Of a DNA stretch of 64,000 bases, positions 24,728 to 53,879 are shown one piece after another (the first letter of the stretch is position 1; every line of letters begins with the position of its first letter). Source of the DNA: Deltaproteobacteria bacterium (lineage in GTDB: Bacteria > Myxococcota_A > UBA9160 > UBA4427); contig JAJDAN010000033.1 of the NCBI GenBank assembly GCA_029261855.1, positions 1 through 64,000 on the forward strand, read 5' to 3'. Position numbers and translations under genes: made by a program. The notes beneath the pieces were generated by a model. The model ran no database searches. It was not told the origin of the DNA and was given only the letters and a program-made list of their open reading frames with translations.

Positions 24728-24772
24728 GCCGCGCACCCGCAGCAAGCCGGAACCCCGGTTCCGGCCCGCTAG
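24728..24772. terminator. 45-nt palindromic element, copy B, at a convergent junction
   Basis: Hairpin gccggaac (24746-24753), loop cccg, gttccggc (24758-24765). It is the second copy of the element at 15650-15694 and again ends on the stop codon (24769-24771) of a minus-strand gene, this time a PQQ dehydrogenase. Compared with copy A, the stem pair A-U has become G-C. Confidence 0.75.
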
Positions 24773-26793
24773 CGGGCTCCCGGTAGCGCGAACGCGACGA
24801 CCGCGTCGCCCGGCTGCGACCAGCCATGGCCCCCGGCCGCGATCACCACGAACTGGCGACCATCGGGACGCAGGCGGTAGCTGATCGGCGTCGAGTTCGC
24901 GGTGTAGGGCAGCCGTCGGCTCCAGATCTCGTCGCCGGTCCGGGCGTCGAAGGCCCGGAAGGTCTTCTCGGTGGTGGCGCCGATGAAGACGACACCCCCC
25001 GCAGTCACGATCGAGCCGCCGAGGTTGGGCGCGCCCAGCTCGAACCACAGGGGAAACGGCGCCTGGTCCCGGGTCGTACCCAGGGTCGACTCCCACAGCA
25101 CCTGCCCCGTAGCCAGGTCGACGGCGGTCAACGTGCCCCAAGGCGGCGCGAGACAGGGTGCGCCGAAGCTCGAGAGCAGCGGGAAACGCTTCACGCCGTA
25201 CGGCGTGCCGGTCATCGGATACAGCTCGTTGGGGTACGTGGCCGACGACGGATCGAGCGCGGCGAAGTCTTCGCGCGGGATCAGCTGCACCACGGCCGCC
25301 GAGCGTGTCTGGTTCGTGTAGAGCACGCCGCGAACCGGATCGACGGAGACGCCGCCCCAGTTCATGCCCCCGGCCGACCCCGGGTACTGCAGCGACCCTT
25401 GCAGGCTCGGCGGCGTAAAGATGCCCTCGGACCGGTAGCGCAGGATCTTCTCGCGACAGTCGGCTTCGTCGATGGGCGTGAACCCCCAGGCGCTGTCGGA
25501 CGTGACCTCGGTCGGATGCAACGGCGGCGGGTGCGTGGGAAACGGCTGGGTGGGCGACAGGGTCTCGCCGGGCACACCGTCCTGGGGCACCGGGCGTTCC
25601 TCGACGGGGTACAGCGGCTCGCCGGTCTCGCGGTCGAGCAGGAAGACGTGGCCCATCTTGGTGGCCTGGGCGACTGCAGGGGCGCCACCGCCCACGCCCT
25701 CGATCTGGAACAGGGTTGGCTGGCTGCCGACGTCGTAGTCCCAGACGTCGTGATGGACGGACTGGAAATGCCACACGAGCTCGCCGGTTTCGGCGTCGAG
25801 GGCCACCGTCGAGCTGCCGTAGTAGTCGATGCCGTCGCGTTGACCTCCGTAACTGTCCGGCGACGGATTCCCGGTAGGCACGAAGACCAGACCGCGCTCT
25901 TCGTCGGCGGACATGGGCGCCCAGACGTTCGGGGTACCCGACGCATAGCGCCGTCCGCCTTGAGAGGGCTTCGACCGCCAACCCGGAGGCACCGGGTCCC
26001 AGGCCCAGCGCAGCGCGCCGGTGCGCGCATCAAAGCCGCGCACGACGCCGGCGGGCGCGTCGACCCGCAGACTGTCCGCCACCAACGCGCCAATCGCCAC
26101 GACGTCCCGTGCGACGACAGGCGGGGATGTCGGGTAGTACTCCCAGGCCGGGACATCGTCGCCAATCCCCTCTCGCAGGGCGACGCGACCCTCGGAGCCG
26201 AACTCGGCACAAGGCAGCCCGGTGTCCGCGTCGAGGGCGATCAGCTCCGAATCCCGGGTGCCGTGGAAGATCCGCCGCGCGCACACGGCCGTGTCCTCCG
26301 CCTCGGGATCCTCCCAATAGGTGACACCGCGGCAGGTCAGGGGATACGGGCCCTCCCCGCGACTCGCGCGCAGGCCTGGATCGAAGGTCCAGCGCTCGGC
26401 TCCGGTTTCCGGGTCGAGCGCGATGACCCGCATGAAGCCGGTGCAAAAGTAGAGCGTGTCGTTGGCGACAATGGGCGTCACCGGGAACGAGGTGCGCGCG
26501 ACGTCGCCCGAGCCATCGGAAAAGTCACCATGGCGGTAGGTCCAGACTTCCTGGAGCGAGGCAACATTGGCCGGCGTGATCTGCGTCAGCGGCGAATAGC
26601 GCAGCCCGCCGAGGTCCCCGCCGTGGGCCGGCCAACCGGCGACGGGGCTGGTGGGATCGATGACCACCCGCTCACTGCAACCCGCGCCCACCCCGGTGCA
26701 GAGCCCTGCGCACAGTAGGACCGCGAGGAGCACCGCTCCCCGCGTCGCGCCTCTCGTCGCGCGAACGAATCCCTTCCGACTGCGATGGGCCAA
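24769..26793 (-). CDS. PQQ-dependent dehydrogenase, exported lipoprotein
   Basis: 674 residues with an eight-bladed quinoprotein propeller: repeated tryptophan-docking motifs such as VIALDPETGAERWTFDP, VRGFDARTGALRWAWDP and FRAFDARTGDEIWSRRL, and the early GWPAHGGDLGGLRYSPLTQI. Lipobox VGAGC predicts a lipid anchor. There is no cytochrome domain and no five-helix membrane region, so it resembles soluble glucose/quinate-type enzymes; the substrate is unknown. TTG at 26793 is the longest start; GTG at 26733 has a better GGGGAG site. It starts 12 bp after the recombinase-like gene. Confidence 0.9.
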   Translation of the reverse strand: MAHRSRKGFVRATRGATRGAVLLAVLLCAGLCTGVGAGCSERVVIDPTSPVAGWPAHGGDLGGLRYSPLTQITPANVASLQEVWTYRHGDFSDGSGDVARTSFPVTPIVANDTLYFCTGFMRVIALDPETGAERWTFDPGLRASRGEGPYPLTCRGVTYWEDPEAEDTAVCARRIFHGTRDSELIALDADTGLPCAEFGSEGRVALREGIGDDVPAWEYYPTSPPVVARDVVAIGALVADSLRVDAPAGVVRGFDARTGALRWAWDPVPPGWRSKPSQGGRRYASGTPNVWAPMSADEERGLVFVPTGNPSPDSYGGQRDGIDYYGSSTVALDAETGELVWHFQSVHHDVWDYDVGSQPTLFQIEGVGGGAPAVAQATKMGHVFLLDRETGEPLYPVEERPVPQDGVPGETLSPTQPFPTHPPPLHPTEVTSDSAWGFTPIDEADCREKILRYRSEGIFTPPSLQGSLQYPGSAGGMNWGGVSVDPVRGVLYTNQTRSAAVVQLIPREDFAALDPSSATYPNELYPMTGTPYGVKRFPLLSSFGAPCLAPPWGTLTAVDLATGQVLWESTLGTTRDQAPFPLWFELGAPNLGGSIVTAGGVVFIGATTEKTFRAFDARTGDEIWSRRLPYTANSTPISYRLRPDGRQFVVIAAGGHGWSQPGDAVVAFALPGAR

Positions 26794-26805: not shown

Positions 26806-27897
26806 CTAGAGCAGCTCCTGCTTGCGCGTCTGGTACGGGAAATGGACGGCCCCGCTCCCGACACGCGGCGGTGCCTCGCCCTCGGCGGCGAAGAGCGCGC
26901 TCGCACGCAGCTCGTCTCCGGCTTCCTGGGCGGCCGCCACGCGCTTGGCGCGACCCTTGGTGCGAGCCGACACGGCGCTCCGGCGCAGATCGTTGGGCGA
27001 GAACGGCGCGACACCCGCCTCCTCGGCCCGCTTGGCGCAGTGCTGGCGCACCGCCGTCGCCGTCAGGCGCCGGATCTCCACCTTGCCGTTCTTCCGAACC
27101 GGACACAGCAGCGCCCCGGGGCTGCTGCCACGCGCTTCGAGCCAGTCTTCGAGGGCAATCAGCGCGCCGTTCTGCAGCGGCACCGTGCGACCGCGGGAGT
27201 CCTTGGTGCCCTTCACGTAGACGGTCACCTGGCCGCGGCGGTTGTCGTACTTCATGTCCGTCACGGCCAGCGCGAGAATCTCGTTCACGAGCAGGCCGCC
27301 CTGGTAGCCGAGGCTCATGATGAGCGAGTCGCGCGAGCCCTGCGGGGTCGTGTCCACGGTACAGGCCGACGTCAGCGCGCGGAATTCGCTGGCGCTCAGG
27401 ATGCGGCCCCGGGTGGACACCTTGCCGTCCGCCTTCGGGAACTGGACTGCCTCGCCGAACTCTTCGTCGCTGAGGAAGCCCAGCTTGTGGCATTCCCTGA
27501 CGACGCGGCGCAGGGAATTCCGGAGCTTCTGCACGTGCTTGGCGGCATACACCGTCGGGACCTGGCGGTACTTGCGGCTCGGGTCCCGGTTGAAGCGGAG
27601 GGATTCGAGGCGCGCCGGCGTGCCCTCGAGCTTGAGGATGTTGAGCGCCGCGGCGCCGTGATACGCCTTGACCTGCTGCCACGGGAACTCGCGGGCGTCA
27701 CACACACCATCGGTGAAGAGCAGCGCCAGGGTCTGCAGCGCGTCTTCAGCGGACCGCCTGCCGTCGCCGGGCTTCAGGGATTCCAGATAGCTTTCGACGG
27801 CGCGCACGCCGCGGGCGACCTCTTCGGGGTCGAGAATGAAGTCAGCAGACTCTCCGGCGAGCCGCTCGTCGCCGAGGTAGACAACATCGGTGGCCAT
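26806..27897 (-). CDS. Tyrosine-recombinase-like protein with degenerate active site
   Basis: 363 residues. An N-terminal SAM-like DNA-binding half (about 30-150) is followed by a catalytic-domain relative (about 165-310): LGYQGGLLVNEILALAVTDM, VYVKGTKDSRGRTVPL, CPVRKNGKVEIRRLT and AEEAGVAPFSPNDLRRSAVS. The first catalytic Arg (G-L-R-x-x-E) is Leu203, the H-x-L-R His is Asn302, and the G-H and nucleophile Tyr region after residue 310 is replaced by unrelated sequence. Lys229 and Arg305 remain. No alternative frame restores the lost part. It may act only as a DNA-binding protein. It has its own promoter region with a palindrome. Confidence 0.8.
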   Translation of the reverse strand: MATDVVYLGDERLAGESADFILDPEEVARGVRAVESYLESLKPGDGRRSAEDALQTLALLFTDGVCDAREFPWQQVKAYHGAAALNILKLEGTPARLESLRFNRDPSRKYRQVPTVYAAKHVQKLRNSLRRVVRECHKLGFLSDEEFGEAVQFPKADGKVSTRGRILSASEFRALTSACTVDTTPQGSRDSLIMSLGYQGGLLVNEILALAVTDMKYDNRRGQVTVYVKGTKDSRGRTVPLQNGALIALEDWLEARGSSPGALLCPVRKNGKVEIRRLTATAVRQHCAKRAEEAGVAPFSPNDLRRSAVSARTKGRAKRVAAAQEAGDELRASALFAAEGEAPPRVGSGAVHFPYQTRKQELL

Positions 27898-27982
27898 TCT
27901 GGGGGGTTCTCCGGTCTTTGCGCTTCAGCGTTCGTCCCGCCCAACGCGCCACACCTGAGCGCGCTCCGGGACGTACGGGGGG

Positions 27983-28023
27983 ATAGCTTTCGAGTAGGCG
28001 AAAAATCGTTACTCGAAAGCTAT
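27983..28023. promoter_or_regulatory. Perfect 14-bp inverted repeat, likely operator of the recombinase-like gene
   Basis: Arms atagctttcgagta (27983-27996) and tactcgaaagctat (28010-28023) are exact reverse complements separated by 13 nt. The site is AT-rich against a GC-rich background, lies 86 bp upstream of the minus-strand start at 27897 and overlaps the predicted -10 region. Confidence 0.8.
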
Positions 28024-28050
28024 ATGCCACTCCAGCCCGAATGTTGTCAA
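28021..28050 (-). promoter_or_regulatory. Predicted sigma-70-type promoter
   Basis: On the minus strand a perfect TTGACA (28045-28050) is followed after 18 nt by CATATA (28021-28026), with TATAGC slightly further. The -10 match is moderate. It would drive the recombinase-like gene and possibly the PQQ dehydrogenase 12 bp behind it. Confidence 0.5.
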
Positions 28051-28108: not shown

Positions 28109-28531
28109 TCAGCTTTCGCCCCCGAGGGCATGCGCGATCCGGCTCGCGGTAGCTGCCAGATCCTCGGGAGCGGCCGTTCGTCGACCGTGCAGCTGAGGGA
28201 GAGACCCATGCCAGCGCGGGATCAGGTGCAGGTGGTAGTGGAAGACCGTCTGGCCTGCGGCCACCCCATTCGTCTGGGCGACGAACACCCCGTCCGGAGC
28301 AAAGGCCTGGCGGATCGCCCGGGCGACCCGCACCGACACGCGCGCCACGGCCGCCATGGCGTCCTCGGTCGCCTCGAAGAGGTTCTCGTAGTGGACCTTG
28401 GGGATGATGAGGGTGTGCCCCTCGGAAACCGGCTGGATGTCCATGAAGACGAGCACCTCCTCGTCCTCGAACACCCGGTGTGCCGGTGATCGACCCGCCA
28501 CGATCTCGCAGAAGATGCAGCCGTCCTTCAT
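28109..28531 (-). CDS. HIT-family hydrolase (histidine triad)
   Basis: 140 residues of the HIT fold: CIFCEIVAGRSPAHRVFEDE at the N-terminus and the histidine triad in FHYHLHLIPRW (H-x-H-x-H). Hint/Hit enzymes hydrolyse nucleoside phosphoramidates or dinucleoside polyphosphates. Its ATG overlaps the stop of the upstream PQQ alcohol dehydrogenase by 4 bp. The two Cys at residues 5 and 8 may form part of the usual zinc-binding set. Confidence 0.95.
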   Translation of the reverse strand: MKDGCIFCEIVAGRSPAHRVFEDEEVLVFMDIQPVSEGHTLIIPKVHYENLFEATEDAMAAVARVSVRVARAIRQAFAPDGVFVAQTNGVAAGQTVFHYHLHLIPRWHGSLPQLHGRRTAAPEDLAATASRIAHALGGES

Positions 28532-30687
28532 TGCAGTGCCTCGGGGTCCGCCTGGGGGGTCACATTGGAGTCGGCGTGAGCGCGGTCGGCCAGGTAGAGG
28601 AGCAGCGCTTCGGCATCCTGCTCGCTGACCACGCCCTCGAAGCCGGGCATCCCCCGCCGGAGGAGCCCCCCGTAGACGACGATGTTGACGAAGGCCCGGC
28701 GGGCGCCCGGACGCAGATAGCGCAGGTCGGTCAGCACGCCGGTCCCCACGGCACCGACCCCGTGGCACGCGGAACAGTTGACCGCGTAGAGATCCGCTCC
28801 GCGTTCGACCTGTGCCTCGCTTCCCGGCGGCGGTGGGGGCGGTGCGGGGTGACGACGCGCAGGGGCCGGCGGCGGGGGTACGGGCTGCGTTCCTCCGAGC
28901 TTCCAGACCAGCAGGTGCCCCGCCGGCCGCGCACCCGTGGCGCGTGCGGCGTCGCCGCCCGAGAGTCCGAAGGCGCCGCCCCAACCGGCCATCACGGCGA
29001 CGTACTGGGTGCCGTCCACCCGGTAGCTGATGGGGCTCGCGATCACCGCCGTGGGCAGCCGCGCCTGCCACAGCTTCTCGCCGTCCGCGGCCCCGTAGGC
29101 GATGAAGCGCCCGTCCGCCGTCCCCTGGAAGACGAGCCCACCCGCCGTCGCCAGGACACCCCCGTTGCCGATCCGCTCGTAGGGCTGACGCCACACGCGC
29201 TTTCCCGTCACGGGATCCCAGGCGTCGAGGCTGCCTCGCGCGGCCTCCCGGGGAAACGAGGTCGCCTCGGTGAAGTCGACGCCGGCGTTGGCGTACGAGC
29301 CGGGGCGGTAGACGAAGGGACCGCGAACCGGCGCGTAGTAGCCCGAGATGTCCTGGGCGGGGATGTAGACGAGGCCCGTCCCCGGATGGAACGCCATCGG
29401 CTGCCAGTTGTGGGCGCCCAGGTTTCCCGGCTGGATGAGCGCCGGCGCCTCCGCGTAGTCGCCCTTGCCCGTCTCCACCGGGCGTCCCGTCGAGAGATCC
29501 ACGTGGGACGCCCAGGTGGTCGTCGCGAAGGGCTCGGCGGACAGCAACTCGCCGGTTTCGCGATCGAGCACATAGAAGAAGCCGTTCTTCGGCGCCTGCA
29601 TCAGCAGCTTCCGGGTGCGGCCCTGCCAGGGCAGATCCGCCAGGATCATGTGCTGCGTGGCCGTGAAGTCCCAGCTGTCGCCCGGCGTGGTCTGGTAGTG
29701 CCACACGAGTTCGCCGCTGTCGGGGCGGAGCGCCAGGATCGACGACAGGTACAGGTTGTCGCCACCGCCGCGGACGTGACGACTCCAGGGCGAGCCGTTG
29801 CCGGTCCCGACATAGAGAAGATCGAGGTCGGGATCGAAGGCCATCGAGTCCCACACGGTCCCGCCGCCACCGACCTGCCACCAAGGCGTGTGAGGCGACG
29901 TATCCGATGCCCAGGTCGACACCGCCCGCTCGAGCGCGGGCGATTCCTGGGGCTCGCGCGGGTCGCGTGGCACGGTGTAGAAGCGCCAGAGGAGCGAGCC
30001 GTCCTTCGCCGCGTACGCCGACACGTAGCCTCGGACGCCCATGTCGGCGCCGCCGTTGCCGATGATCACCTTGCCCTTCACCACGCGAGGCGCACCGGTG
30101 ATCGCGTAGGGCTTCTCCGGGTCGATGGTCAGCACCGACCAGCGAGGCTCTCCCGTCTTCGCATCGAGGGCGATCAGTCGGCCATCGAGAGTGCCGACGA
30201 AGACCGTGCCCTTCCAGACGGCGACTCCGCGATTCACCACATCGCAACAGATCAGCGCGGCGCGATTGCGCGGAACGTGCGGGTCATAGCTCCAGAGCGG
30301 TTCGCCTGTCGCGGCATTGAACGCGTACACGACGCTCCAGGTCGCCGTCGTATAGAGCACACCGTCCACCGCCAGGGGCGTCGCCTCGAGCCCGCGTTCC
30401 GTCCCGAAATCGAAGCTCCAGGCGAGTCCGAGGTCGGCGACGTTGTCGCGGCGGATGTCGTCGAGCGGGCTGAAGCGCTGCTCGCCGTAGTCGCGGCCAT
30501 GGCTCAGCCAGTTGTCCGGATCGGCATCCGCCGCGGCGATGCGCGCTCCGTCGACCGGCCCGCCGGGCGCGAGGGCCGACAGCCCTGCACACGCCAGGCC
30601 CACTGCCGCCGCGCAGCTCGAGCCCGCGATCACACACAGCCGCAGCACCCGCTGGTCCCAGGATCCCTTCCGAGGGGTCGTGTTCAT
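28528..30687 (-). CDS. Quinohaemoprotein alcohol dehydrogenase (PQQ plus cytochrome c)
   Basis: About 719 residues. After a signal/anchor helix comes a PQQ propeller with NWLSHGRDYGEQRFSPLDDI and the vicinal cysteines in AALICCDVVNRG that stack on PQQ in type II enzymes. A Pro-rich linker (PVPPPPAPARRHPAPPPPPP) joins it to a C-terminal cytochrome c domain with CSACHG and a later Met (RRGMPGFEG). Such enzymes oxidise alcohols in the periplasm and pass electrons to a respiratory acceptor. ATG at 30687 is chosen over an upstream ATG at 30723; neither has a strong ribosome binding site. Confidence 0.92.
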   Translation of the reverse strand: MNTTPRKGSWDQRVLRLCVIAGSSCAAAVGLACAGLSALAPGGPVDGARIAAADADPDNWLSHGRDYGEQRFSPLDDIRRDNVADLGLAWSFDFGTERGLEATPLAVDGVLYTTATWSVVYAFNAATGEPLWSYDPHVPRNRAALICCDVVNRGVAVWKGTVFVGTLDGRLIALDAKTGEPRWSVLTIDPEKPYAITGAPRVVKGKVIIGNGGADMGVRGYVSAYAAKDGSLLWRFYTVPRDPREPQESPALERAVSTWASDTSPHTPWWQVGGGGTVWDSMAFDPDLDLLYVGTGNGSPWSRHVRGGGDNLYLSSILALRPDSGELVWHYQTTPGDSWDFTATQHMILADLPWQGRTRKLLMQAPKNGFFYVLDRETGELLSAEPFATTTWASHVDLSTGRPVETGKGDYAEAPALIQPGNLGAHNWQPMAFHPGTGLVYIPAQDISGYYAPVRGPFVYRPGSYANAGVDFTEATSFPREAARGSLDAWDPVTGKRVWRQPYERIGNGGVLATAGGLVFQGTADGRFIAYGAADGEKLWQARLPTAVIASPISYRVDGTQYVAVMAGWGGAFGLSGGDAARATGARPAGHLLVWKLGGTQPVPPPPAPARRHPAPPPPPPGSEAQVERGADLYAVNCSACHGVGAVGTGVLTDLRYLRPGARRAFVNIVVYGGLLRRGMPGFEGVVSEQDAEALLLYLADRAHADSNVTPQADPEALQ

Positions 30688-30801
30688 CCCGCTTAGACTC
30701 CCCGACCGCCGCTGCGCATTCAAGCGCTGCGTTGACGCGAGCAGGGTCGGGTGTCAGGGTACGACCTCCGTTTCGCCCTTCCTCCCTCTTCTTCGCTCTT
30801 C

Positions 30802-53848: not shown

Positions 53849-53879
53849 GAAACGGGAGGCCAGTGTGGCCTCCCGTTTC
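53849..53879 (-). terminator. Terminator hairpin after rpsI
   Basis: gaaacgggaggcc (53849-53861) and ggcctcccgtttc (53867-53879) form a perfect 13-bp stem with loop AGTGT. On the minus strand it is 57 bp beyond the rpsI stop and is followed by TCTTATG. It probably ends the rplM-rpsI transcript ahead of pyrG. Confidence 0.85.

Follow-up and report, generated by a model that had tools for sequence, protein, structure and literature searches.

MrpR (YopR), the master repressor of the Bacillus subtilis prophage SPbeta, has a recombinase fold without the first catalytic arginine (R1) and the catalytic histidine (PDB 8A0A; PMC10516654). In TnsF, which is encoded by Tn6022-type Tn7-like transposons, an inactivated recombinase domain recognizes DNA sequence-specifically (PMC10293859). 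In animals, DUF3504 genes derived from Cryptons (KCTD1, ZMYM2/3/4, and QRICH1) represent an ancient domestication, and several of them are transcription regulators (PMC3212892). In the literature that we searched, which covered few subscription papers, MrpR and TnsF were the only catalytically dead bacterial recombinases that we found. Here we describe a catalytically dead tyrosine recombinase homolog, encoded in a 64,000-nucleotide stretch of DNA that we refer to as the window, together with its orthologs, which we call clade A.

A tyrosine recombinase homolog without an active site

The gene lies on the minus strand at positions 26806-27897 and encodes a protein of 363 amino acids, with a core-binding domain (residues ~19-140), a catalytic core (160-308), a degenerate tail (309-346), and an FPY end (353-355). 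Residues 167-309 match the Pfam family Phage_integrase (PF00589; E 3.8e-14). This match ends at profile position 137 of 172, ahead of the part that carries the GH box and the nucleophilic tyrosine in intact members; an intact paralog (L058) spans profile positions 2-166. Scores against models of XerA, XerC, and XerD were far under the cut-offs, indicating that the protein is not a Xer dimer resolvase.

We modeled the protein with AlphaFold2 from a 25-row alignment (mean pLDDT 81.9). The best PDB matches of the whole model were Cre, an archaeal Xer, XerA, and XerH. Whole-chain TM scores were low (0.3-0.4), probably because of the domain orientation in the model, and the catalytic domain alone gave a TM score of 0.67-0.68 against Cre, with an rmsd of about 2.5 Å. 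In the model of this domain, the final helix ends near residue 332, with nothing confident beyond. By its PF00589 match and Cre-like catalytic domain, the protein belongs to the tyrosine recombinase superfamily, while it does not carry the R-K-H-R-H/W-Y set of an active enzyme. A first-pass annotation of the window had described a tyrosine recombinase homolog that has lost its active site and had proposed structure prediction and alignment to integrases as checks. The reading frame, Pfam match, structure model, and catalytic residue table confirm this description, in that a recombinase fold was found with an incomplete catalytic set.

We tabulated the catalytic residues of the 24 complete orthologs among the 25 in clade A, using as references several R-K-H-R-H-Y proteins, namely XerD, XerC, plasmid integrases, and the intact paralog encoded in the window genome. 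The catalytic histidine is absent from all 24 proteins, being replaced by Asn (17), Asp (4), Glu (1), Thr (1), or Ser (1), and none contains a GH box. R1 is Lys in 12 proteins, Arg in 7, Met in 3, Leu in 1, and Ala in 1. The catalytic lysine is kept in 6 of the 24, as is the second arginine (R2), which has been lost from the other 18. The nucleophile column contains a conserved L-[YF] motif (Tyr in 15 proteins, Phe in 9), in a stretch that was modeled with low confidence. Since the histidine is missing everywhere, this motif makes no active site. Strand cleavage and recombination by clade A proteins are expected to be absent.

As the annotation had reported, the window copy has Leu203 at R1 and Asn302 in place of the histidine. 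As R1 is Arg in the other genome of the same genus, Leu203 is private to the window copy; Asn302 is the typical clade A residue (17 of 24). The window copy does keep the two basic positions listed in the annotation, Lys229 and Arg305, but these are not a family feature and, since most orthologs have lost them, not diagnostic. The annotation also stated that unrelated sequence replaces the GH box and the tyrosine. The GH box is indeed absent, but the statement is slightly overstated for the tyrosine, because the nucleophile column is occupied by the aromatic residue of the L-[YF] motif (Phe in the window protein).

The closest intact homologs found were a paralog in the window genome (G000:C13:10692-11618; L058 7684-8703), which is 37% identical and R-K-H-R-H-Y, and cyanobacterial plasmid integrases (L119-L121), which are 30%-36% identical and have all six catalytic residues. 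The paralog has a C-terminal PY tail in common with clade A but, unlike clade A, retains all six catalytic residues, and it could be used as an active control. More generally, the FPY-type extreme C-terminal tail of clade A resembles the tail of its intact relatives. Genuine intact XerC and XerD are encoded elsewhere in the window genome. We also observed an insertion of ~27 residues with conserved basic residues in the core-binding domain of clade A (about residues 89-116 of the window protein) that is missing from the intact Myxococcota paralogs and from clade B, described below.

Distribution and selection across the bacterial family

The window genome belongs to Myxococcota, and among the 30 genomes of its bacterial family, we found clade A orthologs in 25. 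We did not find one in G006, G007, G008, G009, or G026, some of which are incomplete genomes. When 80 genomes of the order were searched with a clade A profile, members scored 380-526 bits and everything else scored at most 148 bits; thus, the clade is sharply bounded. It is missing from families elsewhere in the order that retain Xer-like recombinases. The reading frame is open in all complete orthologs, and five within-genus pairs gave dN/dS values of 0.087-0.149 at dS 0.34-0.94, revealing that clade A is kept under strong purifying selection. The annotation had named orthologs with an intact catalytic set, which would have meant a single decayed copy, as a finding that would overturn it. 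We found no ortholog with a complete R-K-H-R-H-Y set, and the 25 orthologs, together with dN/dS of 0.09-0.15, rule out a decayed single copy.

Conservation is unevenly spread along the protein. Between genera, identity in the core-binding domain was 51% for clade A versus 42% for intact relatives, and in the catalytic core it was 47% versus 44%. In the stretch expected to carry the GH box and tyrosine, identity was 18% for clade A versus 52% for intact relatives. This pattern shows that constraint is lifted only where the chemistry resides and is kept where DNA would be gripped.

The neighborhood of the gene varies by genus. In several genera it lies near genes for a PilZ-domain protein, a LolA-like protein, IlvD, and a peptidyl-prolyl isomerase, in two others (g3 and g5) it adjoins pcm and a LysM/peptidase gene, and in the window genus (g1) it sits between a HIT gene and a gene for a PQQ dehydrogenase. 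In many of the family's other genomes, the dead recombinase gene is closely followed by a co-directional PilZ-domain gene (L035, L036, L037, L038, L040, L043, L044, L047, L048, L050, L051, L053, L055, and L057). Searches of 50,697 phage records revealed no match to the clade A protein, and viral contigs contained one distant intact relative, so that we rejected a phage origin. Since neighborhoods are conserved and the phage records lack a match, clade A has the appearance of a chromosomal gene that was inherited vertically and moved to new positions between genera, rather than of a prophage gene.

The annotation had correctly placed a PQQ dehydrogenase 12 bp downstream. The gene for this PQQ-dependent enzyme (24769-26793) is also on the minus strand and is possibly co-transcribed with the clade A gene in this genus. 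The dehydrogenase likewise adjoins the clade A gene in the other same-genus genome (L074), but not in other genera, where the clade A gene is often followed by the PilZ-domain gene or has no co-directional neighbor. As the link is genus-specific, control of the dehydrogenase, to which the annotation had given weight, is not supported as the main role; co-regulation is conceivable in this genus at most. In the window, a second PQQ-dependent dehydrogenase gene lies at 28528-30723, such that the two flank the dead recombinase and the HIT-domain gene; all four genes are encoded by the minus strand.

The same bacterial family contains a second dead, C-terminally truncated tyrosine recombinase clade, clade B, of which we fetched 13 loci (L059-L060 and L062-L072; genomes G003, G005, G008, G010, G012, G014, G018, G021, G024, and G026-G029). 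These proteins keep R1 and R2, have Glu or Asp in place of the histidine, and lack the lysine, GH box, and tyrosine; with dN/dS values of 0.06-0.17, they are under purifying selection. In most fetched loci, the gene adjoins the lipoamide dehydrogenase gene (lpd) and clpS/clpA. Tree support for A and B as sister groups was 65/40, so that catalysis may have been lost once or twice, and clade B may be either a sister of clade A or an independent domestication.

Inverted repeats at clade A promoters

Upstream of the window gene is a perfect 14-bp inverted repeat at 27983-28023, exactly as annotated, which we consider a candidate operator (ATAGCTTTCGAGTA-N13-TACTCGAAAGCTAT; arms at 27983-27996 and 28010-28023). 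Reading the minus strand, we assigned a putative -35 element, TTGACA (28045-28050), a putative weak -10 element, CATATA (28021-28026), separated from it by an 18-nt spacer, and a putative ribosome-binding site, GGAGAA (27907-27912). The -35 element matches the consensus perfectly, and TTGACA also occurs upstream of most clade A orthologs. The annotated overlap of the repeat with the predicted -10 holds to the extent that the repeat's first 3 bases lie within the -10 and the region of this element is conserved; however, this -10 is weak and was not called by a consensus promoter scan.

We shuffled the 250 bp upstream 2000 times without obtaining a repeat as long. Since a random 64-kb sequence contains a 14-bp inverted repeat now and then, the real test is conservation. 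The second genome of the genus (L005) matches the window at each of the 28 arm bases as well as at the -35, around the -10, and at the ribosome-binding site, but its spacer, leader, and upstream sequence have diverged. The window itself contains a second perfect 14-bp inverted repeat at 53849-53879, which is G+C-rich with a 3-nt loop and has no T-run directly after it.

The annotation had also proposed a genome scan for further copies of the palindrome. The g1 repeat was single-copy in the window genome (G000) when up to 3 mismatches were allowed, and in both G000 and G001 when the spacer was varied. Relaxed and variable-spacer searches of these two genomes for a regulon beyond the gene's own promoter recovered that promoter only. 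Within the coding sequence, 12 bp at 27786-27797 (GATAGCTTTCGA) repeat part of one palindrome arm exactly. This possible third half-site is not shared by the second genome of the genus, and we took it as a coincidence.

We examined promoter alignments of g1, g2, g10, g11, and g5 with a column-shuffle test (300 shuffles). In g1 and g2, where each comparison involves two genomes only, the g1 repeat was matched in 0 of 300 shuffles, and g2 contains TTCGTTC-N7-GAACGAA just past the -10 (0 of 300 at 7 bp), with one exact copy in each g2 genome. In g10, GTTGAC-N6-GTCGAC lies at the -35 (0-2 of 300); as one arm coincides with the -35, part of this conservation is promoter constraint. The g10 repeat is at the clade A promoter in 6 of 7 genomes searched, and there is one extra match in each of three genomes, of which the G024/G027 pair lies within a conserved coding region and the third is in G029. 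Column shuffles detected no significant inverted repeat at the g11 and g5 promoters. We found no operator common to all genera: GTTC-N7-GAAY in g11 resembles the g2 repeat by eye but was matched in 111 of 300 shuffles, and g5 yielded nothing. The annotation's expectation that the repeat be conserved upstream of orthologs was borne out by the identical arms in one other same-genus genome and, in two further genera, by different conserved repeats.

The sequence of the repeat therefore differs between genera, while its position at the promoter and near-uniqueness in the genome stay. Such genus-by-genus change fits an autoregulatory operator that co-evolves with its protein. Recombinase core sites usually have spacers of 6-8 bp. 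The 6-7 bp spacers of g10 and g2 fit a recombinase-type dimer; for the 13-bp spacer of g1, such a fit is not evident.

A candidate autoregulator and its relation to described systems

These data suggest that clade A probably became a DNA-binding autoregulator. The model toward which we lean, by a small degree, is that a domesticated, vertically inherited recombinase binds its own promoter repeat as a dimer and represses itself and read-through genes. The clade A protein would have kept the DNA clamp (the core-binding domain and the core of the catalytic domain) and lost the catalytic C-terminal subdomain. A dimer may clamp the inverted repeat across the -10 and start region and block initiation of its own gene, acting as a repressor rather than an activator. 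Genes read through downstream, namely the PQQ dehydrogenase gene here and the PilZ-domain gene in other genera, would also be repressed. Of the annotation's proposal of a recombinase domesticated into a self-repressing regulator, domestication is well supported, because no ortholog is intact and the palindrome is conserved in the same-genus genome, while DNA binding and self-repression are putative. Family-wide active-site loss, purifying selection, a preserved fold, and near-unique promoter repeats in three genera favor an autoregulator. Against it are the lack of a significant repeat in g11 and g5 and of the g10 repeat in G016, the atypical 13-bp spacer in g1, and the possibility that the repeats belong to some other regulator.

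This last point leads to the strongest rival, which we regard as unlikely but worth weighing: the repeat may be another regulator's site or a hairpin. Its sequence differs between genera, it is missing in two of them, and the transcription start site is only predicted. However, a single copy per genome is unusual for a regulator with multiple targets. Moreover, a start ~7 nt past the -10 would leave most of the left arm untranscribed, which argues against a hairpin. We give still less credence to the idea that clade A is a non-catalytic, architectural or dominant-negative partner of XerC/XerD or another active recombinase, with the palindrome secondary. Intact XerC and XerD are encoded in the same genome, and the FPY-type tail, which intact relatives also have, could serve subunit contacts. 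Yet the closest intact paralog is missing from most clade A genomes, clade A is missing from families elsewhere in the order that retain Xer-like recombinases, and the confinement of repeats to its own promoter points to self-control rather than shared recombination sites. That the gene is a decaying pseudogene or functionless prophage remnant is highly improbable. Active-site residues have been lost, with Leu203 as an additional substitution that sets the window copy apart from its same-genus ortholog, but the open frames, low dN/dS at dS 0.34-0.94, conserved neighborhoods, and absence from the phage records refute this explanation.

A broader interpretation, which we put forward tentatively, is that clade A is a core, vertically inherited, autoregulated regulator derived from a tyrosine recombinase outside mobile elements, with clade B perhaps a sister or an independent domestication and the operators forming a protein-operator co-evolution series. 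If so, an operator that changes by genus yet stays near-unique would provide a natural co-evolution series on the recombinase fold. Clade A offers a chromosomal, family-wide candidate with many orthologs, with intact paralogs that can serve as controls, and with a short candidate site of its own in each of three genera; because these exist, both the conversion of an enzyme into a regulator and the shift in specificity are directly testable.

How does clade A compare with the described systems? In the literature searched, none of them is, like clade A, a bacterial gene of the chromosome that has been maintained throughout a family. The Crypton-derived genes likewise descend from a domesticated tyrosine recombinase and have lost the tyrosine and most catalytic residues, but they are eukaryotic and fused to other domains (PMC3212892). 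TnsF resembles clade A in its inactivated recombinase domain and missing tyrosine chamber, but clade A shows nothing of its zinc fingers, paired core-binding domains, residence on a mobile element, or cooperation with TniQ (PMC10293859). Like MrpR, clade A proteins have a recombinase fold with lost catalytic residues. We detected no homology to MrpR beyond the superfamily among sequence matches to solved structures, and MrpR was not among the 50 top fold matches listed. MrpR has Asn for the histidine, as do 17 of the 24 clade A proteins, and uses the recombinase fold as a DNA-binding repressor; it differs in being a phage protein that acts on a repeated site in the prophage (SPBRE) and keeps the lysine and tyrosine (PMC10516654). 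In contrast, clade A is chromosomal and family-wide, has lost the GH box and tyrosine, and has repeats nearly confined to its own promoter. With the operator a candidate from its conservation, clade A may bind and repress in the manner of MrpR, which is the closest precedent and shows that a recombinase fold lacking R and H can be a repressor.
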